Shown piece after piece: positions 16,080 through 63,999 of a DNA stretch of 64,000 bases. The position numbers and the translations under genes were made by a program. The notes under the pieces were generated by a model. That model was not told the DNA's origin. It searched no databases and was given only the letters and a program-made list of their open reading frames with translations. Origin of the DNA: Xestospongia bergquistia (taxonomy: Eukaryota; Porifera; Demospongiae; Haplosclerida; Petrosiidae); contig OZ014420.1 of NCBI GenBank assembly GCA_963965975.1, positions 5,668,001-5,732,000 of the forward strand. The letters run 5' to 3'. Every line of letters starts with the position of its first letter. The stretch's first letter is position 1.

Positions 16080-16121
<42 letters not shown>
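16078..16121. repeat. (AAT)n microsatellite at the 5' edge of a retroelement
   Basis: About 14 uninterrupted AAT units directly adjoin the first coding bases of the retrotransposon fragment. The same triplet repeat marks the other edge at 17486-17582. Confidence 0.95.
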
Positions 16122-17463
16122 TGCTAGAGATGGTTTTGTGCTTTTGGGTGCCCCAGTTGGTTCAACTACATTCTGTTCCTCACAGGCCTGCAAGAGAGTA
16201 GAAAAGATTCAAAGTGCACTAGACCTACTGCCTGAGTTGGATGATTCACAGATGGAATATGTCTTGTTACGCTCCTGTTTGTCTCTCCCCAAGTTTGTTT
16301 TTATCTTGCGCACATGTCCCCCCTCCTTGATTGAAGATGCTATTCAGAATCTTGACAGAGCTTTGTATGATTCTGTCTCTGAGATTGTTGGTGCTCCGCT
16401 GCCAGATTGGGCTTGGAAAAAAGCAACTCTTCCAGTCTCATTTGGCGGACTGGGTTTTCGTTTGGCAACCTCTCATGCCTCAGCCGCATTCATCAGTTCT
16501 GTTTCGAAATCTGCCCATCTTGTTGCTGAGATCTTGGATCGAAGTCCACCCCCTCCTCCTCATACCAATGATGTACTGCTCCTTCTGACATCAGCTGTAG
16601 ATCATTCTGATTAGTCTTCCATTGAGAATATAGATGTTCCAGTTCATCAGCGCCATCTCAGTAGAATAATTGACCAAGCCAGATTTGAATCTTTCCTTCA
16701 GGAGGCCCCAGATATTCGCTCCAGGGCTCTTGCTTTGTCTTCCTCTATCCGCCATGCAGGTGACTGGTTGAATGTTGTGCCTTGTTCTGCTCTTGGCCTA
16801 CACCTGGTAGATTGGGAGTTTCGTTCCTGCCTAAGGTATTGGCTTGGTTTGCAGATGGTCGAGGAAGGTTCCTCTTGTCCAGTTTGTAACACAGAGGTTG
16901 ACAGTATGGGTGATCACCTTCTTACCTGTAGAGGTAATGGGGACATGATTCGTCGGCATGACAGCCTGCGTGATGTCATTTTTTCTACTGCACAGTCTGC
17001 TGCCTTGGCCCCTAAGAAAGAAGTCCCCTCCCTTGTTCCTGGTTCCAGTAGTCGCCCTGCTGATGTTTTTCTCCCTTGTTGGAAACATGGTCGTTCTGCT
17101 GCTCTTGATGTTACTGTAGTCTCGCCTGTCCAGCAACTTACCATCAATAATGCTGCTGTCATTCAAGGTTATGCTATTTCTGTGGCAGAGGAGCGTAAAC
17201 GTCGCTTGCATGATAACGATTGCCATCAAGCTGGAATCTCCTTCATCCCATTGGTGGTTGAGTCATTTGGGGGCTGGAGCAGGGAAGCTGCTAATGTAAT
17301 TAAAGAAGTTGGAAAGCTTCGAGCCCATCGTCTCGGTTTGCCCCCCTCTCACTCCATCTCCCATTTGTTCCAACAGCTGTCCATCACTTTATGGCGAGGC
17401 AATGCCGGTATATGGGCCTCAAGAGTGCCCATTCAGTTACCATCGGAGGATGGTATCATATGA
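16122..17463 (+). mobile_element. 5'-truncated non-LTR retrotransposon with RLE-type endonuclease domain
   Basis: One frame runs from the (AAT)n boundary to a stop at 17461-17463 and is interrupted only by a single TAG at 16612-16614. The first part (FVLLGAPVGS, then ALYDSVSEIVGAPLPDW and FGGLGFRLATSHASAAF) matches the segment after the reverse-transcriptase palm in RLE-bearing non-LTR elements. Next comes a CCHC knuckle, CPVCNTEVDSMGDHLLTC. Last is a restriction-like endonuclease signature, RPADVFLP followed by AALDVTVVSP (R-PD...D type), as in the R2/R4/NeSL/CRE group. The RT catalytic palm and everything upstream are missing, as expected for 5' truncation during target-primed reverse transcription. 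The fragment cannot act alone. GC content is visibly higher than in the surroundings. The exact clade is undetermined. Confidence 0.85.
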
Positions 17464-33008: not shown

Positions 33009-35191
33009 TTAAAGATACGCAACTTGTACTTCTTTCTCTTTATCTGGTGTTGTCTTAGGGTTGGATTTATCTTCTTTGATATCTCCACTCTTCAAAATGC
33101 TTTCTACTATTGTATCAAATGATATATCTAGTCCTACATCAGATGCCTTAGCTGCTTCTTGAGACCTTGTATCTTCTTTCTGAGTGAATCCAGTAGGAAT
33201 ATCGGATGTCTCCTTGACAATTTCTTGATCTACACTAGTTGTAGTAGTTGTCATATCATTGGTTTGTTCCACTTCCATATTAGGTATTGGATTAATAGCA
33301 GTTATTTCAATTGTTATCTTTGAAGGATCTGGTGTCTTCTCTTGTGAACCTGCTTTGGTATCAGGAGTAGTTTCTTTACTTGACTCCTGCAATGGTGCAG
33401 CAGTCTTGTCTTCTGATGCATACTTCATTGAATCGCCCTCTCCTTCCTTCTTTGTTTCAACTCCTTTTTTGTCATCATCTTCTTTGACTGTTACACCTTC
33501 TTCCTTGGTTCCTCTCTTAATGTTTTTGCTTTCTTCAATATCTTGCTTGACTTCCACACCTTCTTTGTTCTCCTTACTACCTTCTTTGTCTGATATATTA
33601 ACTTGTGGTTTGCTGTGTTCTTCAGGTTTGTCAACTTGGAACAAAATACTTGTTTCTTTATCTCTTTGTTGATCACTGGTAGATATATTAGGTTCTTTAC
33701 CCACAGCTACTGGAAGTAGCAGAGCAATGGATTCGTTATTAGCTATTTCACTTGATGTTAACACCTCATCTTTGATAGTACTAGTAGTGACATCCTTGTC
33801 CTCTCCTTCCTTCTTTGTTTCAAATGTTTGGTTTCCTCCTTTGTCGTCATCTTCTTTGACTGCTACACCATCTTCCTTGATCTCTCTCTTAACTTCTTTG
33901 CTTTCTTCAATGTCTTGTTTGGCTTCCATACCTTCTTTGTTCTCTTTACTATCTTCTTTGTCAATAATGTCTTTTTTACTTTCCTCGCCATTTTCTTTGC
34001 CTTCTTCAATTTTTTTGTCATTTTCTTTGTCTATGATATCATTATTTCTTTCCTCACCATTTTCTTCACCTGAAATGCCTTCGTTTGTCTTCTGATTATC
34101 TTCTTTGTCTGTTGTACTTTCTTTATTTCCTTCATTATTAGTTGTCACATTGTCAGAAACCTTTCCAAATGTGCTCGACTCAATTTCCATGTCATCCTCC
34201 AATGTTACTACCTTGTGTACTTTTGGAGAAAGATTATCTGAAAGTCTAGAGAAATTAAAATAATATCATAATTATGTGTTTAAATGTTATTTATTTATTT
34301 AAACTCACTCCAAATCTTCCTGATCTTTAAGAGCCTCGTTAACTTGTAGAGGAATAAACAGATAGTAACATTAAAATAAGTTTATATAAGGTCAGTTTAT
34401 CAACACAATGTGTTTATCAACATCATAATTGTGTATTCTAGATCAACAATATATTAAATTTTCTATATTATATAATCCTAATAATTAATAAGATTTGTAA
34501 ATGTATCATTATCATAACACTGTATAAAACTTAATATGCCATACAAAACATATATACTTTCATAATAAAACTTACTTTTAAATACGTAAGTTCTTCTTTT
34601 CCTTCTATTTTTGATATACAAACATAGACACGTTCCACACAGACAGCAGCACATCAGTATTATAACTAATAACACTGGTGGCCAAATATAGAGATAAGGT
34701 GTACGTAACAAGATGAAGTCGGTATCCTTAATAGGACTGACTGTGTCCATGATAGTCATTGATGTTCTTGTAACCATGTTTAAGATAGTTGCAGTCGGTG
34801 TAGATGATGTTGCAGTAGTGATTGAAACAGTTGTATCCATATTCATGACAGTGTTAGCACTCATACTTGGAACACTAGTACTACTTGTGTCCATGATGCT
34901 AGTGGTATCTGCTGTAGAAGTGGCAACAATTGTACTGGAAAAATATTGAGGTGTTGACATACTCAATGTACTCAGTGTCACAGCGATATTTAGAGAAGAA
35001 CTTGTGTGAATAGTACTCACATTGGTTGTAACAACAGTACAATTTGTAGATGTGACATCAGTGCTATTGCCACTGCCACTGCCACTGTCACTGCAATTTT
35101 CAGAGTCATTGGCCTCTGCTGAAGTGACATAAATTAAACAACAAGCAATTAAGCTCAGAATCAAGAATCTTGAATTTATAGTTAACTCCAT
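33009..35191 (-). CDS. Array member A: mucin-like type I membrane protein with acidic tail
   Basis: Three exons join in phase: 34576-35191, 34309-34342 (34-nt microexon) and 33009-34245 (628 aa). The ATG at 35191 opens a signal peptide (MELTINSRFLILSLIACCL). The ectodomain, about 130 residues, is Ser/Thr-rich with MDTSSTSVPSMSAN-type repeats, probably O-glycosylated. TPYLYIWPPV leads into a membrane helix with a Cys cluster (CCCLCGTCLCLY) and a basic stop (KNRRKRR). The tail of about 420 residues is Lys/Glu/Asp-rich and disordered-looking. It contains a module (KQDIEESK, then VKEDDDK) present twice. The C-terminal block is LDISFDTIVESILKSGDI, ending VAYL. Members B and C are close paralogues on the same strand. 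No known family is recognised. A surface adhesion or recognition protein with a cytosolic scaffold tail is inference. Confidence 0.82.
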
Positions 35192-35392
35192 CAACAACTT
35201 TGTGTCATCACTGAGTACCTATGACTGGAACTGGAGACTATAAGGACAATGATGTTTGAATAAACAAAGAATTATAAACATCCAATGTTTATACAATAAC
35301 TGTGTAATTTAATTATTTTTGGACTAACTCCATACAAATAATTGATATATGAAAATCTTTAATTGTTGTATCTATCTTTGTAATTAATAATA

Positions 35393-36300
35393 TCACTTTA
35401 CTGTTAATTGGACAGTGGTCAGGTTATTATTATTAGAATGGTGGACAATTGAGATTATGATAGTACTTTGAACTGCGTAAACACTTGTCTTTCTCTTCTT
35501 ACAAGCAACTAAACAAACAAAAGCATAAAATATAAAATAAACATACATCAACAGTACTCCCAGTATTGACATCCAAATGAACAAATAAGGTGAATTATGA
35601 ATACATTTATTAATGTAGCTTAGTACTATAAGAAGTGGTGGGTGTGGCAATGTAATCAATTCCTACCATTTACTATTTGATGCATGTATTCACAAACAGT
35701 TTATGTTGACTTTACAAAATGACTTATTAGGTTTGTTGTAGTTTAAGTTTTATTTGATTAATTAGTTGACATATGATCACGCATTGAACAAAAGAAACAA
35801 CAAACAACAAACAAGAACAATATATAATATAACAATTTTACTTATCAAGTTTTGTTGTATTTCCAGTTTTAATTGATTTATTAGATCAGAAAAGTCAATG
35901 ATAAATCTAAGAAACAGCCCTGAGCTGTTTTTCTATTTTTTCTATTATTATTAGAGACATTGAAAAGATAGTTGTAGTAACTATTAAAATGTTTTGCATT
36001 TATCATTATTTTTGTTTGGTGAATTTTAATACAAATTTTACCTACAATGATATATCTAATACAAACTATAACATAAAGTGTTTTGGACCTCTTATTTGTT
36101 ATGAACACTATAATAATCAAACTACGTTAATTCACATTATTTTATTGTTGAATTGTTAATTGTTCTCTTTCATGTCACTATGATTGATATTCCTGTTAAA
36201 CTTAATAACTCATCATTGTCTCTCCTCTTTCTTCAAATTTATTTCCAACACTTGTTTGTGTCTGCAAACATCAGTACTCTCTCTTTTACAAAATAATTTT
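35393..36300 (-). pseudogene. Relic of a D-type array member between A and B
   Basis: A minus-strand frame at about 35440-35660 encodes SPYLFIWMSILGVLLM and then CKKRKTSVYAV. This matches D's membrane exon (RYLFIWISVLGLLLI ... KKKTKAYTV). Near 36190-36290 the phrase TTTCTTCAAATTTATTTCCA matches the coding strand complement of D's last exon (42955-42975). No intact start, ectodomain or microexon is found between. It appears to be a dead D-type gene carried along when the A-type unit was duplicated. Confidence 0.6.
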
Positions 36301-36465
36301 TTTCTAAAATACAATCTTCATTATTATATAAGAAGTTCAATATGGTAATTGAGTCAGATGACCTGTCCTGTATGTATATTATTTGGTATGTGTTTAAACA
36401 GAACAAACTACTACATAAATCACAAGATACTATTATGTTATATACTACTCTGTTTATCTAAGACA

Positions 36466-38129
36466 TTAAAGATACACAACTTGTACTTCTTTCTCTTCAT
36501 CTGGTGTTGTCTTAGGGTTGGATTTATCTTCTTTGATATCTCCACTCTTCAAAATACTATCTAATATTGTATCAAATGATATATCTAGTCCTACATCAGT
36601 TGCCTTAGTTGCTTCTTGAGACCTTGTATCTTCTTTCTGAGTGGATCCAATAGAAATATCGGATGTCTCCTTGACAATTTCTTGATCTACACTAGTTGTA
36701 GTAGTTGTCATATCATTGGTTTGTTCCACTTCTGTATTTGGTATTGGATTAATAGCAGTTATTTCAATTGTTATCTTTGGAAGATCTGCTGTCTTCTCTT
36801 GTAAACCTTCTTTGATTTTTGGAGTAGTAGTTTCTTTACTTGACTCCTGCAATGGTGCAGCAGTCTCGTCTTCTGATATATTAACTTGTGGTTTGCTGTG
36901 TTCTTCAGGTTTGTCAACTTGCAACAAAATACTTGTTTCTTCATCTCTTTGTTGGTCACTGATAGATTTATTAGGTTCTTTACCCACAGCTACTGGAAGC
37001 ATCAGAGCAATAAATTTATTATTAGCTATTTCACCTGATGTTAACACTTCATCTTTGATAGTACTAGTAGTGACATCCTTGTCCTCTCCTTCTTTCTTTG
37101 TTTCAAATGTTTGGTTTCCTCCTTTGTCGTCATCTTCTTTGACTGCTACACCATCTTCATTGATCTTTCTCTTAACTTCTTTGCTTTCTTCAATGTCTTG
37201 TTTGGCTTCCATACCTTCTTTGTTCTCTTTACTATCTTCTTTGTCAATAATGTCTTTTTTGCTTTCCTCTCCATTTTCTTCACCTGGCATGCCTTCATTT
37301 GTCTTCTGATTATCTTCTTTGTCTGTTGTACTTTCCTTATTTCCTTCATCATTAGTTGTCATAGTGTCAGAAACCTTTCCAATTGTGTTCGACTCAATTC
37401 CCATGTCATCCTCTAATGTTACTACCTTGTCTACTTTTGGGAAAAGATGATCTGAGAGTCTAAAGAATTAAAAATAATAATACCACATGTGTGTAAATGT
37501 TATTTATTTATTTATACTCACTCCAAATTTTCCTGATTTTTGAGAGCCTTATCAACTGAAGGAGAAATACACAGATGTCAACATTAAAATAAATTTGTAT
37601 AAGCCCAGTAAATTAATACAAATTGTTTATGAACATGTAATTGCATATTCTAGATTAATATAAGATATAATATTGTCTAAATCACACAAGCCTACTATTT
37701 GATAAGTTTTGTAAATGTATATTATTATTATAAAACCATATAAAACTTATCATGCCATACACCTTCAAATGAAAGCTTACCTTTATTAAAGGAAGAAGTT
37801 ATTCTTTTCCTTCTATTTTTGATATACAAACATAGACACATTCCACACAGACAGCAACACATCAGTATTATAACTAATAACACTGGTGGCCAAATATAGA
37901 GATAAGGTGTACGTAACAAGATGAAGTCAGTAGGAGTAAAAGTGGCAACAATTGTACTGGAAACACCATCACTGCCATCACAGTTGTCACAATGACTGCC
38001 ACTGCCACTGCCACTGTCAATGTCACTGCCACTATTTTCAGAGTCATTGGCTTCTGCTGAAGTGACATAAATTAAACAACAAGCAATTAAGCTCAGAACC
38101 AAGAATCTTGAATTTATAGTTAACTCCAT
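36466..38129 (-). CDS. Array member B: type I membrane protein, short ectodomain, acidic tail
   Basis: Three exons join in phase: 37781-38129, 37522-37555 (34 nt) and 36466-37459 (458 aa). The signal peptide is almost identical to A's. The ectodomain is cut to about 60 residues, with an SGSGSGS run and no mucin repeats. The PTDFILLRTPYLYIWPPV juxtamembrane block and Cys-rich helix (LMCCCLCGMCLCLY) are preserved. The tail is shorter than in A because the second KQDIEESK module is missing. It ends DISFDTILDSILKSGDI and VVYL. Flanks on both sides are near-copies of those of A, so this is a recent duplication. Confidence 0.82.
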
Positions 38130-38329
38130 CAACAACTTTGTGTCATCACTGAGTACCCTATGACTGGAACTGGAGACTATAAGGACAATGATGTTTGAAT
38201 AAACAAAGAATTATAAACATCCAATGCTTATACAATGACTGTGTAATTTAATTATTTTTGGACTAACTCTATACAATTGATATATGAAAATCTTTAATTG
38301 TAGTACATAATTTTAATTAACCATATAAC

Positions 38330-38815
38330 TTTACTGTTAATTGGACAGTGGTCAGGTTATTAAAATAATGGACAATTGAGATTATGATAGTATTTTGAAC
38401 TATGTGAACTGTTGTCCTTCTCTTCTAAATACTAAACAAAAGAAACAAACAAGAACAATATATAATATAACAATATTACTCATCTAGTTTTGTTATATTT
38501 TTAGTTCTAATTGATTTGTTATAGTTGTCATATATGACTACAGAGCAATTAAATTGCAATTTTAGTACACTGATGAAGTTATGTTATATACAATGTTTGT
38601 ACTATGAATGGTGTGTAAATCAGAAGAGTGAATGATAATACAAACTATGACATCAAGTGGACCTTCACTATGTTATAATAAACAGACTATGTTAGTTCAC
38701 ATTATTTTAGATAACAGTCTCTATTATGTCACTTTTAACTCTGTAGTTGTCTCTTTCTTCAAGTTTATTTCCAGCACATCCCTCTTGGTATCTGCAACAT
38801 CAGTACTCCCTCATT
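38330..38815 (-). pseudogene. Shorter relic of a D-type member between B and C
   Basis: 38334-38430 matches the relic at 35398-35490 with a further deletion. 38745-38810 matches the relic at 36215-36290 and D's last exon (TTTCTTCAAGTTTATTTC). No coding capacity remains. It repeats the A-to-B spacer layout and so marks the duplicated unit. Confidence 0.5.
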
Positions 38816-39007
38816 TTACAAAGTAAATTATTTTTTCTATAATATAAACTTCAATTATTATAATTATAAGAAGTTCTATTAGCTATATGAGTCAAATGAC
38901 CTATGACCATGTAAATATATTGCTTAGTATGTGTTTAAATGGTAACAAACTACTACATAAATCACAAGATACTATTATCTTGTATATTACTATGTTTATC
39001 TAAGACA

Positions 39008-41839
39008 TTAAAGATACACAACTTGTACTTCTATCTCTTCCTCTGGTGTTGTCTTAGGGTTGGATTTATCTTCTTTGATATCTCCACTCTTCAAAATGCT
39101 TTCTAATATTGTATCAAATGATATATCTAGTCCTACATCAGATGCCTTAGCTGCTTCTTGAGACCTTGTATCTTCTTTCTGAGTGAATCCAATAGAAATA
39201 TCGGATGTCTCCTTGATGATTTCTTGATCTACACTAGTTGTAGTAGATGTCATATCATTGGTTTGTTCCACTTCCATATTAGGTATTGGATTGATGTCAG
39301 CGATTTCAATTGTTATCTTTGGAAGATCTGGTGTCTTCTCTTGCAAACCTTCTTTGGTTTCTGGAGTAGTAGTTTCTTTACATGACTCCTTCAATGGTAT
39401 AGCAGTCTTGTCTTTCGTGACATACTTGCTTGAATTGGGCTCTCCTTCCTTCTTTGTTTCAACTCCTTTTTTATCATCATCTTCTTTGACTACTACACCA
39501 TCTTCTTTGGTCTCTCTCTTAACTTCTTTGCTTTCTTCAACATCTTGTTTGGCTTTCATACTTTCTTTGTTCTCCATACTACTTTCTATGTCAATATTGT
39601 CTCTTTCTATTTCCTTGCTACTTTCTTTGCCTTCCTCAATTTTTTTGTCATTTTGTTTGTCTTTCTTGTCATCTTCTTTGTCTGCAACATCTTTTCTTTT
39701 TTCCTCACCATTTTCTTTCCCTTCGTTGATTGTCTTATCATCTTCTTTGTCTGTAATATCTTTTGTGTCATTATCCTCGTCTACAATATATTTTCTTCTT
39801 TCCTTGCCATTTTGTTTATCTTCCTTAATCTTCTTTTCATCTTCTTTGTCTGTAATATCTTTTTTGTCATTATCCTCGTCTACAGTGTATTTTCTTCTTT
39901 CCTCGCCATTTTGTTTATCTTCCTCAATCTTCTTTTCATCTTTCTTGTCTACAATATCTTTTCTCTCTTCATTGTTTTCTTTGCCTGGAATATCTTCTTT
40001 GATTTTTTCATTATCTTCTTTGTCCATTGTACTTTTTTTATTTCCTTCATTATTTGTCATCATAGTATCAGAACATTTTCCAAATGTGCTCAACTCAACT
40101 CCTTTATCATCTTGAAATGTTAATTCCTTGTCTACTTCTGGGAAAAGATTATCTGAGAGTCTAAAGAAGTTAAAATAACAATACCATATGTATGTAAATG
40201 TTATTTATTTGTTGAACTCACATCAAATCTTCTTGATCATTGAGAGCCTCATTAACTGGTAGAGAAATAAACATATGTTAACATTAATGTAAATCATCAC
40301 AGTTGCTTGTGTAGAACTATTCTAGGTCAACATTATTAGTAAAATATATTTAGAAGTTTATAAACAGTTTAGCTTAAGTAACCTTTAAAACCATTATCTA
40401 ACCAGGATCATTTACACCTATTGAAACATTTAACTATAGTTTTAACTAAGTGCTGTAAAACTTGGCTACTTCATAATTCATACATGTAATAACATTTTGT
40501 TATTTATTATAATTAAATAATTTAAGACTTGCTATGGTTGTATCTGCCACTATGCCTTCAGTCAGTACTCAGGCTTGGAATTAGCAACTCAGTAGCTTGC
40601 CCACATATTATTCAATACAATTTAGCGTTTGAGCTTTTCCAGAATATGAATAGCTTACCTGATTCAGTATATCTTACAAAAGCTAAAAATGTATGTTACA
40701 CTAATATAGGCTTATTCAGCAGCAGATCTTTCTGTAGTTTTGATATTTCTATGGCAGTTATTCTGTGAAGCAACCACCAAATTGATTCCAACTGAATAAA
40801 ACGAATGAACTAATTTGTTTTATTATTTTTACATTGTTCATTGTATGTGTATGAATTAGAAAAAAGTGCTTGTTTACATGTGTGTGTATTCTATTCCCAT
40901 CTTTTCCATATTACCGAGGCATGTTGAGTCATCAATGTTGGGAATTGTCATGCACTTAAAAACTTAATTAGTACAAAAATATGTATTAGTTTCAAAGTAA
41001 AACTTACTTTTAAATACGTAAGTTCTTCTTTTCCTTCTATTTTTGATATACAAACATAGACACGTTCCACACAGACAGCAACACATCAGTATTATAACTA
41101 ATAACACTGGTGGCCAAATATAGAGATAAGGTGTACGTAACAAGATGAAGTCAGTATCCTTAATAGGAGTTGTGACCATTACATGTGATGTCCTCAACAT
41201 TATAGATGGTGTTACAGGACTGACTGTGTCCATGATAGTCATTGATGTTCTTGGAACCATGTTTAAGATAGTTGCAGTCAGTGTAGATGATGTTGCAGTA
41301 GTGATTGAAACAGTTGTATCCATATTCATGACAGTGTTAGCACTCATACTTGGAACACTAGTACTACTTGTGTCCATGACACTAGTGGTATCTGTTGTAT
41401 TCATGACAGTGCTAGAGCTCATACTTGGAACACTGGTACTACTTGTGTCCATGATGCTAGTGGTATCTGCTGTATTCATGACAGTGATAGCACTCATACT
41501 TGGAACACTAGTACTACTTGTGTCCATGACGCTAGTGGTATCTGCTGTATTCATGACAGTGTTAGCACTCATACTTGGAACACTAGTACTACTTGTGTCC
41601 ATGATGCTAGTGGTATCTATGACAGTGCTACTAGTGATACTATGCCCACTTGTGATCACAGCAGTCATTGTAGTAGATGTTACAGCCGTGGTTGAGATAC
41701 TGTCATCTACACTTGAGACTTGTACAGGGCTATTTGCTATAGTATTAGTATTCACAGTACTGGTATAATTGGTTGCAGTTGTAGCAGTTATCCAAGTCAC
41801 AATACAACATAAAACTAAGTCAAGTACCAACATTGTCAT
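39008..41839 (-). CDS. Array member C: mucin-like type I membrane protein with acidic tail
   Basis: Three exons join in phase: 41008-41839, 40222-40255 (34 nt) and 39008-40160 (672 aa). The first ATG is at 41839 and the signal peptide (MTMLVLDLVLCCIVTWI) differs from A and B. The ectodomain, about 210 residues, carries four to five near-perfect 25-residue repeats (TSSTSVPSMSANTVMNTADT plus TSIMD). It then has the shared PYLYIWPPVLLVIILMCCCL block. The tail has repeated KEDEKKIKEDKQNGKERRKY-type units not seen in A or B. It then has the single KQDVEESK/VKEDDDKKG module and the common C terminus ending VVYL. Divergent ends combined with a conserved middle suggest exon shuffling or gene conversion. 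Confidence 0.82.
41310..41620. repeat. 75-bp coding tandem repeat in member C ectodomain
   Basis: Four to five 75-base units, each encoding 25 residues centred on TSSTSVPSM, differ by only a few bases. The landmark on the plus strand is CATACTTGGAACACTAGTAC. Such homogeneous repeats are prone to copy-number change between individuals. Confidence 0.9.
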
Positions 41840-42926
41840 AATTAGCCTCAGCAGCAACTTTTAAACAAAGGTGGAAGATGAATACTGGATGGGTCGGGTT
41901 TAGAATGAGTCAAATCTGATATCTTCTTGCCAAATGATCCTTTTGAAACTGGATCCTCTATAAGCCCTTCCTATATCCATATGTGGTTTATTCAATTCCT
42001 GTTGATCTACAATATGTGATATGGTGTTCACAAACAATTTATGTTGACTTTGTAAAGTTACTTACAGCTGGTTACAATTCTTGTTCTAAATTATTAGTTA
42101 GTGGTCCTTAGGAATATTTTGTGTTGTTTTAGCTGTAATCACAATGATATATTTAGCATGCAGAGGACTAAATGCTAAGTTTGTCTCTTAATGTGATTAT
42201 GACTCTTAACCAACAACCAGACACCTGAGTTATAGCTATGTACAATTATACCATTGATGTTATTGCATCATCCTCTTGTTACACCTCTGCATATTGCCTC
42301 ATTTCAAGCTTTCCTTCACTGAATGCCTGATTATGAGGCTACACCCCTACACTGTAGGTAGCATACTCGTAGATGATGTATTGATGTTCCTCTTTACTAA
42401 ACTGTTATTACAATTAATTTTAGCTCATTATTTAGGTAAAACATATTTAATTATATTTTATTAGCATCACATTATTGAATAATTATCTAGCTATATTATA
42501 AGTAAATAAAGGAATAAACAAATCATCACCATTTCCATATCCTGTAGTATAATCAAGATGTACTGAAATGATGCCAGTTGTATAGTAAACAGCTAAGTAA
42601 TAAATTATATCATCAAATTCTTAAAAGTGATATTGTAATGTGCTACAATAAAGTTCATATTAAATTTATGTTTAGCGAAACTACATCACTACTATTTAGG
42701 TCATATATGACCACAAAGCCAGTTTTAATACAAGCATAATCATGATAATATTAATTTTGTTGATATAAGCTAAAATACAATGTTTGTTCAATGAATGTTG
42801 TGTAAATCAGAAGAGTCAGTGATAAAAATACAAACTATGACGTCAAGTGCTTTGGACCTCTATTATATGTTATAATAAAACAGATTATGTTAGTTGACAT
42901 TATTTAAGATACCAGTTTCTATTATA
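41840..42926 (-). other. Spacer between members C and D
   Basis: No gene was seen. The part near 42790-42926 resembles spacers at about 38590-38730 and 36040-36180 (shared AGTGCTTTGGACCTCT and TTATGTTAGTT-like phrases). It is therefore the downstream flank of D-type genes, conserved in each duplicated unit. Confidence 0.5.
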
Positions 42927-44551
42927 TCACTTTGACTCTGTTGTTGTCTCTTCACTTTCTTCAAGTTTATTTCTAGCACCTCCTCCCTCACTGGTGTATA
43001 CAGACTTCAATGCTTCTTTATTTTCTAAATAATCTTCTTCTTTAGGATCTTCTATAATTCCTTCAAGAAGTATGCCAAAACTACTAGCTTCTATGCCTCC
43101 TTCCATTCTCTTCTCCCAATGTACATTCTCCAAATGCAATGATAGACGCTGCGAAAAACTGAAATATTTATGTTAACACATTTTGATAAAAAATGACCAT
43201 TACCTGAGGTTTCTTTCTTCTTTGACGAGTGTTTCAACTTTAATTGTTTATCATAATAATGGAATAATATACAGTCATATATATACATGTATGTATGCAT
43301 GTATATATATAAGAAACATAAAGATCTTTAAACAAACAAACAATTTTGAGTGGATGGATAGATAGAGCTGAGGTATTATATTATTGCATTTTGTTAATAA
43401 AGCAACTACATACCTTCAACTGTGTATGCTTTTGTCTTCTTTTTACGAGCATATAAGCCAAATAAACAACAACAACAACAACAGGTGATACATATTAATA
43501 GTAGACCCAATACTGAAATCCAAATAAACAAATAACGTAGAACATACTTGCCAATATAATCAGTGAGTTTAGTACTGGATGTAGTACTAGTAGATGGTAC
43601 CATTCTACTTATTGTTGATGATGGGTACAATGACCTGTTGCTTGTAATAAATGAGGATTTTTGTATTAAAGTGGTGGATGTGACATTGTAATAAGTTGAC
43701 AATGACATTGATATGATGCTAGTGGGAATAATATAAGTTGATGATGTGTGGAATGAATGGTGGCTACTTGTTGTAAACGAGGGCATTTCAATTGAAATGG
43801 TAGATGTATATGTGAATGATGATGTTGAGATAACGTTAGTGGAAGAGTTATCAACTGATGTTGATGGGTGGAGCAAGTCACTACTTGTAGTTGCAGCCTC
43901 TAGTAATGAAGTGGATAGGTTGAGCAAGTCACTACTTGTAGAGGATGGGTGGAGCAAATCACTACTTGTAGAGGATGGGTGGAGCAAGTCACTACTTGTA
44001 GATGCAGTCTCTTGTAATGAAGTGAATGAGTTGAGCAAGTTATTACTTGTAGACTCAGTCTCTTGTAATAAAGTGGATGGGTGGAGCAAGTCACTACTTG
44101 TAGACTCAGTCTCTTGTAATGAAGTGGATGGGTGGAGCAAGTCATTACTTGTAAAAGCAGTTGCTTGTAATGAAATGGATGGGTGGAGTAAGTCACTACT
44201 TGTAGATGCAGTCTCTTGTATTGAAGATGTTATAATATCATAAAATGATGATGTCATTCTGACAACAGTGGAAAAAGTATCAGTAGGTGTTAAAGATAGG
44301 TGGTATAAACTGCTTGTAGATGATAAATCATCAAAAGTGTTGGCTGTGATGATGCTATAATTATCAATTGTAGAATCCCATACTGACTCTCCAGATTCTC
44401 CAGATTCAACATCCATTAATATAGTAGCTAATATTAATGAGTTGTGAATAGAGATACTAATCATATATTGTAATAACATACCTTGTACAGTTGTAGAGAC
44501 ATTTGAACTTACTAGACCAAATAGACTGATAATAACAACAAGAGATATCAT
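42927..44551 (-). CDS. Array member D: mucin-like type I membrane protein, short tail
   Basis: Exons 43414-44551, 43204-43237 (34 nt) and 42927-43158 join in phase (467 aa). The ATG at 44551 starts a signal peptide (MISLVVIISLFGLVSS). The ectodomain of about 320 residues is Ser/Thr-rich with 17-residue repeats around TSLQETESTSSDLLHPS at 43870-44230. RYLFIWISVLGLLLI leads into a helix with six consecutive Cys, then RKKKTKAYTVE. The microexon gives VETLVKEERNL. The 77-residue tail begins with FSQRLSLHLE, like member E, and is acidic. A GTATGT at 44479 and TTAG near 44425 could delimit a 54-nt intron within the first exon; 54 is divisible by three, so both readings stay open. Confidence 0.78.
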
Positions 44552-44907
44552 CTTGAAAGTAAAATAACTTTGTCCAAAGCATACAAGAAGACTTAATGTG
44601 ATTTTATTGATATTATAACTAAAAAGAAATATTTACATTGAAGGATAATGTAAACATAACTTAGTTCCAATTAACCGAAATATACTCTTATTCAGAGAGT
44701 AAAAATAACATAAACAATAAATCCTAGCATTAATGTCAATTGGATTTTATTCTGTTATATAGTGTTATTATAGTATTACTAAATTCACTGTCATGGATAC
44801 TACTAATACTATTACTACTACTATTAATACACACACTAGCTGTATATATTTTCATTGCTTTCTCTAACATTGTTACAGGATCATATCTATAGATCAACAT
44901 TAGTAGT

Positions 44908-46327
44908 TCATGTCTTGTCCATGTTCTTCCCTATAGTTGTTGATGTATTATCTTTGATATCTTCTTTAGCAGCAGCACCAGTGCCTGTGTCAAATAGAGT
45001 ATTTATTTCTGCTACAAAGTTAGAGGCTGATGTGGGTACATCTGAAGTGGTAGCTAGCGACAGATCATAAGATATTTGGGATACATTTGCTGGTTTGTCT
45101 TCCATATCATCACCTTTCTTTGTGTCTTCCTGTGCTATTTTCTGAGAACAGGCATTGGTAAGTTCTGCCACTTTATTATTTACAGGCAATATCTCAGAAG
45201 ACAAACACTTTGGCTTAACCTTAAGTGGCTCAGTCTTAGCCTCATTACCTACTTCATTGATTGTCTTGTCTTTATTTGTGGTGTGGGTGACATTATCATA
45301 TATGTTTCCTTCAATGTTTATATCTTCCAGCGTGATCTCTTCTTTAATAGTTATACTCACAACTGGAGGAGCGTTAAAGGTAGTTTGTGCTACACTTGAT
45401 GTGCTGGGAGTCTTCCATTTCCATGCATTTGTCTCTACTTGTATTGAAAGCCGCTTTGAAAATCTATGGAACAGAATTAGGAATGGATGGATGAATGAAT
45501 GGATGGATGGATGAATGATAAATGAATGATGGGTGGGTGGGGTGTATGAATGATAAATGAATGCATGATGGACATGTAGATGGATACATGATCAAATCAA
45601 ACAATATGGCAGTGCACTTACTGAAGGTCTTTTTCTTCTTTTAAGAGTCCATCAACTTTTGTCAAAAGTAAAAGAATATAACAAAGTTTTCATCTACATA
45701 GTTGACTTACCTTTCAGAATATATTCTCTTGATCTTCTCCTCCTTCTGATCATGAAGATTATGCAACAACAGCAGAAGCAAATTATGCAAAGAAATACTA
45801 GCACAGTCCCTAACACTGGAGGCAATAAAAATAGATAAGGTGTGAAAGATTCATCACTGTTGGTCTGAATGGGTGCTATGGATGATGAAGCTAAGTTCCC
45901 AGGACTAGCACTGGTAAGAAAAGCTCCTGCTATGGTAGGACTTAGTGTTAAGTGGAAAGTACTATGTGATGATATTGAAAGTGAAATACTTTTCAACCCA
46001 TATTCTAAGTGAGTTGTGAAATAAGTTAGTGAAGAAGCTAAGATACTAGTAATAGTGTTATTTGGAACTTGAAGTGACACTAGTACTACTGATGAGGAAC
46101 TACTTGAAGTTGAAATGTTTTCGAAACCAGATCCAGACTCATGGCCAAAATCTAAACCAGTTATAAAAGACAATAACATGTATTATATTATTTAGTATTG
46201 TATTGTTATACTTACAATCATCTATGATTGATTGTGAGCCAACTAGAGTAAAGCAAACAACACAGAGAAAGAACAACATACTAAGACAGCCTCCAACATC
46301 AGTTAGATACACAAACCAATTGATCAT
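44908..46327 (-). CDS. Array member E: type I membrane protein with acidic tail
   Basis: Four exons join in phase: 46216-46327, 45711-46151, 45622-45655 (34 nt) and 44908-45463 (380 aa). Exon 1 gives a signal peptide (SMLFFLCVVCFTLVGSQS). The ectodomain of about 115 residues is Ser/Thr-rich. The membrane block TPYLFLLPPVLGTVLV then runs into Cys-rich IICFCCCCIIF and RRRRRSREYILK. The microexon gives VDGLLKEEKDL. The tail begins FSKRLSIQVE and later has FVAEINTLFD, a motif shared with F. Although sequence similarity to A-C is low, exon phases, microexon length and layout are the same, so membership in the array is well supported. Confidence 0.78.
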
Positions 46328-46664
46328 CTAAATGTCCCAATTTCTATACAAACATACTACTATATATAATGTACAATATACTGCAATAATGCAAGTGGTC
46401 ATTTACTACACCATATGATGTGCACTGATCCCCAAACCGAAAAGTATAAACATAAGACTAATGACATAAGTATTGAATAACACTGCTATATATTTATATC
46501 AGCAAAGTACATATACATTGTATAGTAAACATAACTGTAAATTACTAAACAGACAACAATAAACACAAAGGGGAAAAATCTTAATTTGTTCAGGCAATAT
46601 TAGAATAAGAAATCACAAAAATAGTAACCACACATACTATAATAAAATATTGACATTCCATTTT

Positions 46665-48062
46665 CTAACGATTTTCAAGTTCACCTTCTTTTTCATGGAC
46701 GCTGTCAGTGTTGCTAAATTCCAGTATATCTTTAAGCATTAAATCTAAAGCTGCATGGCTAGTTGGATTAACAGCCGAGGTTACATCCAAATTTTCTTGC
46801 TGTTGTGGGAGTGGTGTATCATCCAAGACAAGAGCCATGTTTAATTGTAAGGCATTTATTTCAGCTTCAAAATCAAGAGATGGTAGAGCTTGTGGCTTGT
46901 TATCGATACTGGCAGCATTTAATAATTCTGCGTTGTCTTCTTTGTTTTTTTGATCACTCGTTGGCTTTGCTTGATTTTGTGTCTCTTCCAAAAGTAACTG
47001 TGTAACTTCACTCTTGTTAAGTTTAGATGTTTCTGTTGTCATAATTTCAACTTTAACAGTTTTCTCATGATTAGTGATGTTTGCTTGATTCCCCTCTCCA
47101 CTTTTAGCTTCTTCTTGAACGACGACCGTCTCTTCTTCATTGACAGCTTTGTTTATTTGACTATCATTGCTTTTATCTTCTTCATTATCAACAGACTTTG
47201 GTACATCTACAGTAACAGATGACTCAACAGTAGTGTCTTTGACTTTATCTTCATCTTTCAGCACTACTTTGTTCTCCCCTGTTGATGTTTTGTCCTTTTC
47301 ATCTTCTTTTTTTGACTCTTCTTTTTTCTCACCACTTTCGTCAATTGTAGTTTCGTCAGTAGTCTTCACTTCAACAGTCTTCAAGGTTGGTAACCTAAGG
47401 AATAATACATTATATTTAAATATGTGATGTTTGTATATATGTAAATGAGATTAACTACTTACATATGCTTCAATTCTAATTAAACATATTTTTTATCATT
47501 TATTTACCCTATTTCTTCTTCAACCTCTTCAGCTGTACATAAAAAGAGAAAATATAGGAAGTAGTTTATTCATTAGAATTATATATAATACATAATTATA
47601 TAAACTCTTTTGCACTTTAATTTAGTTTAATTGTCATGTCATAATTAACATGTTAGATATTTATGAAACTTCTATCTCACCTTTAAAGGTGTATGCTTCG
47701 ATTTTCTTCTCTCTTCTATGCCGATGACAACAGCGATATATACAGCAACATATACAACAACATATACAACAACATGTAGCAAATAATACTAGTACTACTG
47801 GAGGCCAGATATACACATAGGGATCGTCCAAAACATATAAATCAACTATGCACATGATATCATTTAAAGAAGGTGTACATTTGGGAGATGGTGTGCTGGT
47901 AGGTAAAATTGAACTTGTATCACCACTACCTGATAAATCATCTGTAGATTTATTTATGAACAATAATTATATATAAGTAATTGAGACTATATGCTTACCT
48001 CCTGATGATGACTCAAGAAAGTTCAGATAACAGAGATAAAAGATGAAGATCAAAATATTCAT
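46665..48062 (-). CDS. Array member F: short-ectodomain type I membrane protein, acidic tail
   Basis: Four exons join in phase: 47999-48062, 47681-47941, 47508-47532 (25 nt) and 46665-47394 (359 aa). Exon 1 is a signal peptide (MNILIFIFYLCYLNFLESSS). The ectodomain is only about 55 residues, with PTSTPSPKCTP. DPYVYIWPPVVLVLF continues into an extreme Cys run (CCCICCCICCCIYRCC) and a basic stop, ending in AYTFK. The microexon is 9 bases shorter than the 34-nt form elsewhere, which keeps the phase. The tail is Lys/Glu/Thr-rich with FEAEINALQL and DLMLKDILEF near its end, comparable to the DISFDTI block of A-C. G and H downstream are near copies of its first two exons. Confidence 0.78.
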
Positions 48063-48491
48063 ATTTGAAGACAGTTTAAACCACCAACAGGTGACCAATA
48101 TGAGTAATGATACGTTTATGTACAGTTGGTACACTTGATATATATAGCATCATGTGCCTTGTAATAAAATCTACATCAATGTGTGTATTCAACCCACACA
48201 TCTACAAACTGTTTAATGAATTCTTGTTTGTTATATGACCTTATATATACTGTGAGCATACATGCATAATGTGTCATAATTTAAAATGAATGCAGTTTAT
48301 AAATTGATACTACATGATGAAAAATATAATCCCATTCTTATCAGATTATTGCAATTATATTCAAGTGATCCTCATTTAATTGTCTCTGTGAACACCTGAA
48401 TTGCTATCTGTAAGACAAAGAATATATAATATTTAACTCTTGGGCACAGTGGTGATAGCATGTATAAAATAATACACTATTGATTGACCTC

Positions 48492-48701
48492 TCACTGCCT
48501 TTGCACTTCTGAATATACTGTGGAACAGGAACATAATTCATTTCCAGGAGTGTTTAATTCTTCCATGTCAACGTAGATATTTTTCAGTGTAGAATGAACT
48601 GTGAGTACTGTAGTAAATATTGTTATAATTATTTCTATACCCAAAGCCTTATTTGTTAGTGTTAGCAAAGCAATGAATGAGAATATTAAAAGTGATAACA
48701 T
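48492..48701 (-). CDS. Small repeated gene, copy s1 (hydrophobic N terminus)
   Basis: A 69-codon frame with its own ATG at 48701 begins MLSLLIFSFIALLTLTNKAL, a possible signal peptide. It contains IYVDMEELNTPGNEL. Two related but damaged copies lie at 49350-49620 and 50208-50470, alternating with members G, H and I. The central stretch up to PGNEL is conserved among the three and the C terminus differs. No family is recognised. It could instead be an exon of a larger gene. Confidence 0.4.
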   Translation of the reverse strand: MLSLLIFSFIALLTLTNKALGIEIIITIFTTVLTVHSTLKNIYVDMEELNTPGNELCSCSTVYSEVQRQ

Positions 48702-48805
48702 TTGTACTTTATACTAATAATTAACATAATAACTAAGGTCTACATAATATATTGAAATATATGTAACAAGCATGTGAGAGCAATATGACTGTACAAGTGT
48801 TTTTT

Positions 48806-48847
48806 AAAGATGTCATACTGTAATTATAATTACAGTATGACATCTTT
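48806..48847. repeat. Perfect 42-bp palindrome
   Basis: AAAGATGTCATACTGTAATTA is followed at once by its exact reverse complement. It contains the last codons and the stop of array member G. The corresponding place in member H has only one arm (near 49718-49737). Confidence 0.92.
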
Positions 48848-49197
48848 TATTACAAATTTCTTCTTACGCTGATATCGATAACAACAGCAACATATACAAC
48901 AACAACATATAAAGCAACATGTAACAAATAATACTAGTATTATTGGAGGCCAGATATACACATAGGGATCTTCCAAGATATACAAATCAAACACACACAG
49001 AATATCTTTTAAAGAAGGTGTACATTTGGGAGATGGTGTGCTGGTAGGTAAAATTGAACCACTACCTGATGACTCATCTGTAGATTTATTATGAACAACA
49101 ATTATATATAAATAATTGAGACTATATGCTTACCTCCTGATGATGCCTCAGTAATGTTCAGAAAACAAAGATAAAAGATGAAGATCAAAATATTCAT
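48830..49197 (-). CDS. Array member G: truncated F-like membrane protein without acidic tail
   Basis: Two exons join in phase: 49134-49197 and 48830-49077 (103 aa). They copy F's first two exons: a signal peptide (MNILIFIFYLCFLNITEASS), GSGSILPTSTPSPKCTP, DPYVYIWPPIILVLF and a Cys-rich helix (CCFICCCCICCCCYRY). The protein then stops inside the 42-bp palindrome after QRKKKFVIKDVIL, so the microexon and acidic tail are gone. It may be a functional short form or an early pseudogene. Confidence 0.62.
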
Positions 49198-49349
49198 CTT
49201 TGAAGACAGTTAAACCACCAACAGGTGACCAATATGACTAATGATATGATTATGCACAATTGGCACACTTGCATCATGTGCCTTTGTAAGAAAATCTACA
49301 TCAATGTGTGTATTCGACCCACACATGATATAATATTTAACAATTGAGC

Positions 49350-49620
49350 TCAGTGGTGATAGCATGCATAAAATGACATACTATTGACCTCTTGTGCCTT
49401 TGCACTTCTGTAAGCTTCAATATCCTGTGGAACAGACACACTAAATGATTCCAATTCATTTCCAGGAGTGTTTAATTCTTCCATGTCAACGTAGATATAT
49501 TCCAGTGTAAAATCAAGTGTGAGTACTGTAGTAAATATTGTTATAATTATTGCTATACCCAAAGTCTTATTTTGTTACTGTTAGCATAGCAATGAATGAG
49601 AATATTAAAAGTGATAACAT
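49350..49620 (-). pseudogene. Small repeated gene, copy s2 (frameshifted)
   Basis: It matches s1 and s3 through IYVDMEELNTPGNELES. Relative to s1, one extra T in the run at 49569-49573 breaks the frame between the hydrophobic start and the body. The downstream part ends PQDIEAYRSAKAQEVNS. Confidence 0.5.
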
Positions 49621-49734
49621 TTGTACTTTATACTAATAATTAACATAATGACTAGAGTTTACATAATATATTGAAATGTAGCATGTGAGAGCAATATGAC
49701 TGTACAAATGTATTTTAAAGATGTCATACTGTAA

Positions 49735-50080
49735 TTAGGAGCTTCTTTCCTTCCTACATTGATAAGAACAACAATATATACACCAACGTGTAATACAACA
49801 TGCAGCAATTCCAATTAATGCTAGTATTATTGGAGGCCAGATATACACATAAGGATCTTTCAAGATATACAAATCAAACACACACAGGACATCATCTAAA
49901 GAAGGTGTACATTTGGGAGGTGGTGTGCTGGTAGGTAAAATTGAACCACTACCTGATGACTCATCTGTAGATTTATTTATGAACAATAATTATATATAAG
50001 TAGTTTAGACTATTACCTGATGATGCCTCAGTAATGTTCATCAGAAAACAGAGATAAATGATGAAGATCAAAATTTTCAT
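49735..50080 (-). CDS. Array member H: truncated F-like membrane protein without acidic tail
   Basis: Two exons join in phase: 50017-50080 and 49735-49964 (97 aa). They give a signal peptide (MKILIFIIYLCFLMNITEAS), GSGSILPTSTPPPKCTP, DPYVYIWPPIILALI and a less Cys-rich helix. The protein stops at QCRKERSS. It is closest to G. The acidic tail exon is absent downstream. Confidence 0.62.
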
Positions 50081-50207
50081 CTTTGAAGACAGTTTAAACC
50101 ACCAACAGGTGACCAATATGACTAATGATACGATTATGCACAATTGGCACACTTGATATATATAGCATCATGTGCGTTTGTAAGAAAATCTACATCAATG
50201 TGTGTAT

Positions 50208-50477
50208 TCAACCCACACATGATATAATACTTAACTCTTGAGCTGACACACTATTGACCTCTTGTACCTTTGTACTTCTGTAAGCTTCAATATCCAGTGG
50301 AACAGACACACTAATTGATTCCAATTCATTTCCAGGAGTGTTTAATTCTTCCATGTCAACGTAGATATATTCCAGTGTAGAATCAAGTGTGAGTACCGTA
50401 GTAGATATTGTTATAATTATTGCTATACCCAAAGTCTTATTCGTTAGTGTTAGCATAGCAATGAAGGAGAATATCAA
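50208..50477 (-). pseudogene. Small repeated gene, copy s3 (start lost)
   Basis: It has the same core, IYVDMEELNTPGNELES, with a longer C terminus than s1. The position of the s1 start ATG is CTG here. Two extra bases in the T run next to it (about 50477-50482) create an in-frame stop, so only a later Met could serve. Confidence 0.5.
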
Positions 50478-50559
50478 AAAAGTGATAACAGCTGTACTTA
50501 ATAATTAACATAATGACTAGGAAATACATTGAAATGTATGTTACAAGCACATGAGAGCT

Positions 50560-50990
50560 CGAGTGATATGACTGTACATGTTTTTGAAGATGTCTTGCAT
50601 GTAAGTAGGATTTTCTTTTTCTTCCTACATTGATAACAACAGCAACATATACAATGGCATATAACACAATATGTAGCACAAATATTACTGGAGGCCAGAT
50701 ATACAGATAGGGAGTGACCAAGAATTGAGTACACACTAGATATCATTTTAAAAAAGTGTACAATACAGAAGTAGTGATGGTGTCAAGAATTCAGCTGGAG
50801 CCACACTGGAGGAAATAGTACTGATAGATATAACAATTGAATTTGCATTGTCTAGTAGTTGAGACTATATACTACTGACCTCATAGTTTGTATGATGCCT
50901 TAGTAATATTCATAAAACAGAGATAAAAAGTAATTAATTGACAAAATCTTTATTTTTGAAGGTATCCTCAAAAAAGTGGTACATAATTAT
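50560..50990 (-). pseudogene. Array member I: degenerate F/G/H-type copy
   Basis: A minus-strand frame retains TPYLYIWPPVIFVLH and VGRKRKS, but the Cys cluster is mostly lost and the proline-rich ectodomain is unreadable. Near 50890-50960 the remnant of exon 1 (CATAAAACAGAGATAAAAAG on the plus strand) has lost its ATG. This looks like the oldest end of the tandem array. Confidence 0.55.
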
Positions 50991-59650: not shown

Positions 59651-59741
59651 GTTAGAAAAAGACACACCCTAGAGAGAGCTTTCTAATTAAAATTTAAAAC
59701 CCTTTGTTCATTCTATTTAATACCCATCTTCTTGATCAAGT

Positions 59742-61331
59742 ATGGATCGTCTCTTACAACTTGGGGCTGGTGGACTACATGGTATGGGTCAGGTGAGTAT
59801 CACACGACACTCATATGACACATTAATGTCCTATATTTTACAGCCACCACCAGGTGTTGACACTCCAATGATGGATACTACTGAAACTGTGTACATATTA
59901 TCATTAGCATTGTTAAAGGTTAATTGTTATAATGTGAATCGATACCAGATTGTAGCAACCTATAATGACCATTCCATGATTCACATGTACATGTACCAGA
60001 GAGAAAGTACTTTCCTTATAATAGTTCTGACTAATCAACGTTAAGGATATACCCATAAATTATGGAAGCGTTTGGTTTATCTTAATGATACTTAACACCA
60101 TACCTATAATTCTGATTAGCAAGTATCATATAGATGGTTGCCATTTTCATATAAAGATATAGAATTTTTATTAAAATTTGATGTATTTTTTTCTTATGGG
60201 ACACTTATTAAAAGATGTTAAAACATGGTAAGTTATATAGTTTATATTCTGTGATATAATTTATCCATATAAGGTCGTGCTGGTGTACCTATGGAAGTAA
60301 TGGGTCTCGTGTTAGGGGAACTAGTTGATGACTATACTCTGTTAAATTTTAGGGAAAGTGGTAATAGATGCATTCCAGCTCACTACAAGCACTTGGACAT
60401 GAAATCTCGTCAGACAACATCTAATTTGGGCCACCTTTAAAAGGCCTTCAATCCAAGTTAGTTAGCAATAATTACCAGGGGGTGAAGCTAATGGCCCCTC
60501 TATAGGCTCCCATACATGGACTAGGACAACATTATTATTCCTTGCCTATTAATTATCGTAAAAATGAGCTAGAATATAAGGTATGTGTTGAAGGAAGATG
60601 GATCATTTATTTTGACATACTGATAATATTTAGGATACAATAATTTTAATTTTTATTTCCCAGATGTTAAGTAATTTGCAAAAGAAAGCATGGATGAATG
60701 GACTACAACTTGAAGACTTTCAAGAGATTTGCACAAACAATGAACAAACAGTGAAGGTATTAGAATAGAGACCTATCAATAAAGAGTTAATCATTGTTCT
60801 CCTATTTGTTAGGAAATGTTAGAATTGGCAAAAAGTTATAACAAGGTAAATTTTCTAGCAAAAAATATGTGTAGTTCTCTTTAAGGCATTAGAGGATGAA
60901 GAGGACATGACTCCTGAACAATTGGCTATTAGGAATGTCAGGAAACTGGTGAGTAGATCCTTTAGTGAGTGTGTTTAGTGGTAGCCATTTCTTGAACAAT
61001 TATTACCTAGATATCTTGCTTGATCAGTCAGTTGTTGACCACATTCATTTACCTTTCTATGATATTAAAATTAATAAGGATTATGCTCAAACAGTAGATA
61101 TCTTGTACAAAAATAGGAAATTAACATAAGCCAGTAAGATGCCTGTTGTGGTACAGTGATGTACATGTTGAAGTTATTGTGTTTTCTGGACTATTCGTTC
61201 ACAAAGCTTCATACTTTAATATTGTTATTTAGAACCCCAAACGTCACCTTGAGAAAAAAGTAGAGCAAGTATTGACTAACAACATTACACAGACATTAGG
61301 AGCCATGTTGGACACTGTTGTCTTTTCATAA
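59742..61331 (+). pseudogene. PSMD14: PSMD14 (RPN11), copy 1: broken, JAMM region deleted
   Basis: RPN11 is the deubiquitinase of the 19S proteasome lid. Exons 59742-59792 and 59844-59918 give the N terminus. A 13-nt microexon at 60215-60227 gives MLKH. An exon from 60274 gives [22 protein letters not shown]. The reading then jumps to GKVVIDAF near 60356. Everything between is missing, including the zinc-binding HSHP and the Asp of the JAMM motif. Next, a shifted frame contains [10 protein letters not shown] followed by a stop. Later exons still encode YRKNELEYKML, MTPEQLAIRNV and the true C terminus AMLDTVVFS (stop 61329-61331). Introns are retained, so this is a duplicated pseudogene, not a processed one. 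An intact gene must exist elsewhere. Confidence 0.85.
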
Positions 61332-63510: not shown

Positions 63511-63587
63511 TTCTAGAGAGAGAGCTTTTTAATTAAAACCCTTTGGATTATCTTCATTCTATTTAATACCTATCTCCTTGATCAAGT

Positions 63588-63999
63588 ATGGATCGTCTCT
63601 TATAACTTGGGGCTGGTGGACTACAATGGTATGGGTCAGGTGAGTATCACACGACACTCATATGACACATTAATGTCCTATATTTTACAGCCACCACCAG
63701 GTGTTGACACTCCAATGATGGATACTGCTGAAACTATGTACATATCATCATTAGCATTGTTAAAGGTTAATTGTTATAATGTGAATCGATACCAGATTGT
63801 AGCAACCTATAATGACCATTCCATGATTCACATGTACATGTACCAGAGGGAAAGTACTTTCCTTATAATAGTTCTGACTAATCAACGTTAAGGGACAAAT
63901 CCATAATTTGTGCAAGTGTTTGGTTTATCTTAATGATAGCTAGTACTATATTGGTGGTTGCCATTTTCATATAAAAGATATAGAATTTCTATTAAAATT
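63588..63999 (+). pseudogene. PSMD14: PSMD14 (RPN11), copy 2: premature stop in exon 1, runs off the window
   Basis: It starts as copy 1 at 63588, but codon 6 is TAA (63603-63605) and a base is gained before the exon 1 donor. Exon 2 (PPPGVDTPMMDTAETMYISS) is otherwise well kept. The rest lies outside the window. Confidence 0.8.

Follow-up and report, generated by a model that had tools for sequence, protein, structure and literature searches.

A tandem gene family of single-pass sponge surface glycoproteins with putative glycosaminoglycan attachment sites

The 64,000-nucleotide stretch analysed here (the window; Xestospongia bergquistia, contig OZ014420.1, positions 5,668,001 to 5,732,000) carries, between 33.0 and 51.0 kb, a tandem array of eight minus-strand genes (g1-g8) for predicted type I membrane proteins, together with one relic of a transmembrane (TM) exon (g9) and two weaker g4-like relics (Table 1). 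An earlier sequence-only reading had counted nine minus-strand genes or relics; eight genes and the TM-exon relic near 50.6 kb account for that number, to which the two g4-like relics have to be added. The splice models were predicted from the genome sequence alone, and all eight, g4 included, have GT-AG borders and open frames. Three coding exons were modelled for each of g1, g2 and g3, and four for g4, g5 and g6, including a separate signal-peptide exon, while g7 and g8 consist of two exons each and end right after the membrane part. As the sequence-only reading had described, g1-g8 have in common a signal peptide, an aromatic-Pro block in juxtamembrane position, a helix with a Cys cluster and a basic stop; block, helix and stop were aligned for seven of the eight genes, the g3 block being identical to that of g1. 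A TM hydropathy peak is present in every gene, and an N-terminal peak above 1.6 in seven of eight, with g6 under it (signal peptides were judged without a dedicated predictor).

An acidic Ser-Gly cluster opens the mature ectodomain in all of these genes except g3, a new observation that the earlier reading had missed. It takes the form SGSGSG in g1 and g2, SGESGE in g4 and SGSG in g5-g8. Across four subfamilies, an acidic SGxG or SGxSG begins no more than 16 residues from the mature N-terminus with two to five acidic residues within six, and the cluster codons differ between g1/g2, g4, g5 and g6-g8. Frames of at least 60 amino acids in the window (25,664 residues) contain the pattern 11 times, and seven of these are the array heads; of the other four matches, one lies in the g6 tail, one in a frame spanning the border of the g4 microexon and two outside the array. 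In shuffled ectodomains, the pattern appeared within the first 30 residues at frequencies of 0.0025 (g1), 0.14 (g2), 0.0003 (g4), 0.026 (g5), 0.05 (g6), 0.05 (g7) and 0.02 (g8), values that are not independent between g1 and g2 or among g6, g7 and g8. Passages of two papers (PMC8418075; PMC7570499) describe glycosaminoglycan attachment sites as a modified Ser followed by Gly, with acidic residues nearby. It is therefore possible that the cluster is the kind of site that bears a xylose-linked glycosaminoglycan, and we regard it as a putative attachment site.

The relationship among the genes was judged from whole-genome searches with the membrane blocks and from shuffled controls, and not from blastp E-values among the eight sequences, which lack composition correction. 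The g3 block recovered itself and seven array copies (E 1.2e-31 to 5.7e-4) but missed g4, with one outside site at 0.28, and the g6 block recovered all seven other genes down to 2.7e-4, with one outside site at 0.22. The g5 block recovered g3, g1 and g4 at 4.5e-5 to 1.7e-4 and g2 at 0.017, missing g6-g8, and the g4 block recovered g5 (1.3e-4) and the relic at 35.5 kb (0.07). Seven pairs of blocks were compared with 1000 shuffles each, made within stretches of 12 residues. No shuffle attained the real score for g1-g4, g1-g5, g1-g6, g4-g5 and g1-g7, while four did for g4-g6 and 18 for g5-g6; the membrane blocks thus match beyond composition. Taken with the shared exon structure and neighbourhood, these searches and shuffles are taken to show common descent, best for g1-g5, with g6-g8 joined through their likeness to g1-g3.

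Outside the array, the g5 block matched four sites at E 6e-4 to 0.03, of which C13:1445190, C2:548331 and C2:555744 were below 0.01, better than the 0.017 of g2, and C7:5790894 stood at 0.03; weaker sites were matched by the g3, g6 and g4 blocks (C3:9931844, C11:4734516 and C3:1324328). Six of these stretches, all but C3:1324328, were inspected by eye over part of their length and on one strand. The C2 pair and the C13 site look like other proteins with poly-Cys helices and the rest look unrelated, so none was accepted as a family member; since non-members carry poly-Cys helices, such a helix alone is weak evidence. The two C2 sites are related genes, separated by 7 kb, that combine a poly-Cys TM helix with another kind of ectodomain, and Cys-rich helices may be common in surface proteins of this genome. 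Block and tail-end searches of the 146-Mb genome found no convincing member elsewhere, although distant members could be missed; the tail end of g1-g3 matched g1-g3 only and that of g6 matched g6 only, the g4 and g5 tails being left out. Pfam gave nothing at curated score in 15 array exon translations. Three matches below threshold, Orthoreo_P10 (E 0.0043), Frag1 (0.0044) and DAG1 (0.06), fell on the Cys-rich helix and were taken as chance. Profile searches against the PDB returned no match with the g1-g3 tail (three rows) or the membrane block (seven rows). The earlier statement that no family could be recognised is thus borne out, with no Pfam or PDB family at threshold and no strong profile match. 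Among the open-access papers listed, no title or opening of an abstract dealt with this family or with a sponge transmembrane proteoglycan core.

On the cytoplasmic side, g1-g6 carry a microexon of 34 nt in g1-g5 and 25 nt in g6, always 1 mod 3 in length, which is entered with one codon base and left with two; the g1-g5 microexon peptides are alike by eye. The microexon had been attributed to all nine members, but it was found in these six; g7 and g8 stop just past the membrane and g9 is a relic, no search for decayed microexons having been made in these three. The cytoplasmic part spans 99-433 residues in g1-g6 by our own choice of boundary, and its net charge is strongly acidic in g1 (-43), g2 (-35), g3 (-37) and g6 (-31), mildly so in g4 (-6 over 99 residues) and near neutral in g5 (-3). 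Consequently, the acidic tail previously assigned to six genes holds strongly for g1, g2, g3 and g6 and mildly for g4, and not for g5. The idea of a tail conserved array-wide is also not supported, and tails differ between subfamilies: hhalign detected no similarity between the g1-g3 tails and the tails of g5 and g6 (probability 0.2% both times), and a C-terminal motif common to g1-g3, g5 and g6 was dropped on these two results. A likeness between the g4 tail and the first parts of the g5 and g1 tails was seen by eye only. The C-termini are VQVAYL or VQVVYL in g1-g3, and the other five genes end differently. A structure model of the g1-g3 tail has a mean predicted local distance difference test score (pLDDT) of 42 and one short helix, which is in keeping with disorder for a model built from only three alignment rows.

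By our boundaries the ectodomains measure 34-301 residues, which amends the earlier range of about 55-320 and leaves the strong variation standing, and the picture of type I membrane proteins in an array that has duplicated repeatedly, their ectodomains differing widely in length, is supported. This variation arises from repeat number and from patchy exchange between copies. A 75-bp unit is present 3.9 times in the g3 stalk, 51- and 30-bp units occur in the g4 stalk and the g3 tail has a 99-bp unit; among the ectodomains, coding repeats of at least 30 bp are confined to g3 and g4, and g1 shows similarity to a single unit. Further, g1 is a mosaic of g2-like and g3-like parts. In 5' flank, signal and head it matches g2 at 93-100% identity and, in the same columns, g3 at 34-43%; its next stalk stretch is 83% identical to g3, and its remaining stalk and TM part 97-98%. 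All three genes share a tail end at 95-97% identity, and in mid-tail, where the alignment crosses repeats and gaps, identity against g3 goes down to 54-62%. Site patterns are clustered both from the membrane block onward (134 runs vs a shuffled mean of 192) and over the whole length including the unrelated heads (147 vs 218), with none of 5000 shuffles as low in either case. Synonymous divergence (dS) between g1 and g3 is 0.52 at the tail start, against 0.07 in the membrane block and 0.06 in the last 103 codons. Because of this mosaic identity, the clustered site patterns and the uneven dS, patchy gene conversion or unequal exchange is preferred over constraint alone, and such exchange accounts for at least some of the likeness among the g1-g3 membrane blocks.

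Several enzyme families of glycosaminoglycan synthesis match the genome above curated cut-offs, as family matches and not as proven orthologues: Xylo_C (E 2e-22), CHGN (2e-123), GT64 of exostosins (1.3e-20), Fam20C (3.2e-22) and GT43 (1.1e-38). The CHGN (chondroitin-synthase-like) matches form two local clusters of three each (C9:1214539-1248866 and C11:5500216-5512407), a possible expansion of chain-building enzymes. In the sponge A. queenslandica, according to passages of PMC5865150, Fam20 acts on a Gal-Xyl disaccharide linker and the enzymes of the xylose-linked tetrasaccharide linker appear to be encoded, sponge glycans being structurally distinct. Excerpts of two further papers give this species three exostosins apparently orthologous to EXT1, EXT2 and EXTL3 (PMC9178029) and no evidence of a perlecan-like gene (PMC4398486).

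Taken together, the reading that we find most probable, if only tentatively, is a tandem family, restricted to one lineage, of mucin-like single-pass surface glycoproteins of type I, most of them acting part-time or full-time as proteoglycans. The architecture, the heads and the turnover of the array are observed; the glycosaminoglycan, the other modifications and the PDZ binding are inferred. A number of points weigh against the proteoglycan reading. The motif was picked after the sequences had been viewed and the ectodomain starts were placed by eye; the g2 cluster lies inside a 6-bp tandem repeat (38033-37995, 6.5 copies) and is not unlikely from composition, the g1 cluster codons look like those of g2, and g3 has no cluster. 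The stricter nematode motif E/D-G/A-S-G is not matched, SGSG can be a plain flexible linker, and the motif alone is described in part of PMC8418075 as an ambiguous means of finding proteoglycans. In addition, g6-g8 show no sign of purifying selection, their ratios of nonsynonymous to synonymous divergence (dN/dS) being 0.81-1.51 (g6 vs g8 tested, p 0.46), and sulfated glycosaminoglycans have, in the relevant passage of PMC5050403, not been reported from marine sponges.

This last report, the g2 repeat and the missing g3 cluster would suit ordinary lineage-specific transmembrane mucins, that is, glycocalyx stalks whose Ser-Gly cluster forms a flexible head of low complexity without glycosaminoglycan. 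Such mucins would also explain why Ser and Thr make up 32-47% of the ectodomain in all eight genes and why g3 and g4 have coding tandem repeats there. However, four subfamilies have the cluster in the same position, each time next to acidic residues but written in different codons, and the linker-pathway families Xylo_C, Fam20C and GT43 are present in the genome. We consider the mucin explanation one to be taken seriously, if on balance doubtful.

Allorecognition or immune receptors under diversifying selection, with ectodomain length and sequence as a recognition code and in line with the recognition or adhesion role suggested in the sequence-only reading, would account for the duplications and relics, the mosaic ectodomains and the variation in repeat number. 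However, none of the six comparisons tested has a dN/dS significantly above 1, leaving the diversifying selection proposed in the sequence-only reading unsupported. For microexon plus tail, dN/dS is 0.45 for g1-g3 (Fisher p 5e-7), 0.54 for g2-g3 (p 3e-4) and 0.62 for g1-g2 (p 0.09), and therefore g1-g3 behave as coding genes, and in g7 and g8 no constraint is apparent; at the tail end dN/dS is 0.46-1.16 in g1-g3 (g1-g3 pair tested, p 0.53). The aligned stalks of g1 and g3 differ at only 4 of 177 nt and Pfam finds no folded recognition domain, so that a recognition role appears improbable. An array in decay, in which few genes or a single one still work and most of the variation is neutral debris, would fit the tailless g7 and g8, the three relics and the dN/dS near 1 in g6-g8, but is very improbable in view of eight open models, g4 among them, the purifying selection on microexon and tail of g3 vs g1 and vs g2, and the phase kept in six microexons.

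If the array proteins are proteoglycans, a xylosyltransferase would prime the acidic Ser-Gly head for a glycosaminoglycan or similar acidic chain, and the variable Ser/Thr-rich stalk, presumably O-glycosylated, would keep this head away from the membrane. The Cys-cluster helix, probably palmitoylated, and the basic stop would provide the anchor, from which a mostly acidic, probably disordered tail would extend into the cytoplasm in g1-g6, ending in g1-g3 in the hydrophobic VQV[AV]YL, which we take to be of the PDZ-ligand class and which may bind PDZ domains. Duplication, repeat expansion and patchy exchange would alter stalk length and swap heads, as they have in g1-g3, and the protein would be a coreceptor for adhesion or matrix that bears glycans, comparable in action to syndecan or CD44. 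A more speculative possibility is that membrane-anchored sponge proteoglycan cores of this kind are natural acceptors of the xylose-linked chain machinery, a lineage-specific syndecan-like invention in which exchange between the tandem copies reshuffles heads and stalks. If true, they would be acceptors for machinery that sponges encode though classical glycosaminoglycans have not been found in them, and with named candidate acceptors the targets of the sponge xylose-linker pathway could be tested directly. Should the motif carry no chain, the array would be a neat but unremarkable example of turnover among mucin-like genes.

Table 1. Features of the array and of the rest of the window (window positions; aa, amino acids; ORF, open reading frame).
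Feature	Position	Strand	Exons (splice model)	Description
g1	33009..35191	-	exon 1 35191-34576, microexon 34342-34309, tail exon 34245-33009	628 aa; exon 1 encodes signal peptide, acidic SGSGSG, Ser/Thr stalk, TM, basic stop; C-terminus VQVAYL
g2	36466..38129	-	exon 1 38129-37781, microexon 37555-37522, tail exon 37459-36466	458 aa; short ectodomain with SGSGSG; C-terminus VQVVYL
g3	39008..41839	-	exon 1 41839-41008 (about four 75-bp repeats), microexon 40255-40222, tail exon 40160-39008	672 aa; without Ser-Gly cluster; C-terminus VQVVYL
g4	42927..44551	-	signal 44551-44482, ectodomain/TM 44427-43414, microexon 43237-43204, tail 43158-42927	449 aa; open throughout; SGESGE; 30/51-bp repeats
g5	44908..46327	-	46327-46216, 46151-45711, microexon 45655-45622, tail 45463-44908	380 aa; SGSG; near-neutral tail
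g6	46665..48062	-	48062-47999, 47941-47681, microexon 47532-47508 (25 nt), tail 47394-46665	359 aa; SGSG; acidic tail
g7	48830..49197	-	two exons	103 aa; SGSG; Cys-rich TM; ends shortly past basic stop, no tail
g8	49735..50080	-	two exons	97 aa; SGSG; TM; no tail
g9 relic	50590..50961	-		signal-exon-like (50961-50892) and TM-exon-like (50721-50602) fragments
g4-like relic 1	38400..38790	-		like g4 3' end (38588-38781 vs 42775-42983, 83% identity), then sequence like relic 2; 37982-38470 vs 35048-35540, 88% identity, a match also covering the g1 and g2 heads
g4-like relic 2	35400..36300	-		TM-like at 35471-35620 (matches at E 0.07 only); 3' end near 36.06-36.3 kb (36058-36142 vs 42827-42905, 77% identity)
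Stretch repeated downstream of g9, g8 and g7	about 50.43-50.2, 49.55-49.4 and 48.6-48.5 kb	-		frame partly open; g7 copy more decayed by eye; perhaps the remains of a tail exon, or a small gene of its own
Three tandem ORFs	2942-15318	+		1219-1270 aa, alike by eye; another surface family; long secreted-looking part and hydrophobic, multi-pass-looking end; first ORF has a weak beta-helix match below cut-off
Two adjoining ORFs	16081-17463	+		retroelement remnant by eye; second without Pfam match
Two near-identical ORF stretches	59736-60044 and 63517-63891	+		a repeat

Among known systems, syndecans (PF01034) resemble the array proteins in being type I and single-pass, with putative acidic Ser-Gly sites of the glycosaminoglycan type in the ectodomain (seven of the eight array genes) and a hydrophobic PDZ-type C-terminus (g1-g3). 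However, the syndecan cytoplasmic part is short and conserved, whereas the array has the long cytoplasmic part of g1-g6, a poly-Cys helix and a tandem arrangement. A passage of PMC7570499 has the syndecan C-terminal EFYA binding PDZ, an ending that differs from the VQVAYL or VQVVYL of g1-g3. PF01034 gave no match up to E 1 in the 15 array exon translations and, genome-wide, six sites that were all below cut-off (best E 0.038), none in the array. Therefore, lacking both this defining domain and EFYA, the array genes were rejected as syndecans. Four of the six sites were translated as possible syndecan-like loci elsewhere; the best adjoins immunoglobulin-like sequence and is not obviously a syndecan.

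Transmembrane mucins are defined by a Ser/Thr-rich stalk with tandem repeats of variable number on a membrane anchor, and the array shares the Ser/Thr-rich stalk and the anchor, with such coding repeats in the ectodomains of g3 and g4 only, but a SEA domain was not found in it and seven of eight genes have the Ser-Gly head. CD44 and betaglycan, named in part of PMC7570499 as surface proteins able to bear heparan sulfate, would be alike in that some receptor forms carry glycosaminoglycan and, for betaglycan, in a PDZ-type C-terminus. These two differ in domain content. Link and ZP domains belong to CD44 and betaglycan, respectively, and Pfam finds neither in the array. The sponge aggregation factor and glyconectin proteoglycans have large secreted cores, whereas the array encodes membrane proteins, a separation made by description and not by sequence. 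Their likeness to the array lies in the part that sponge surface glycans play in adhesion, as described in a passage of PMC8271808.

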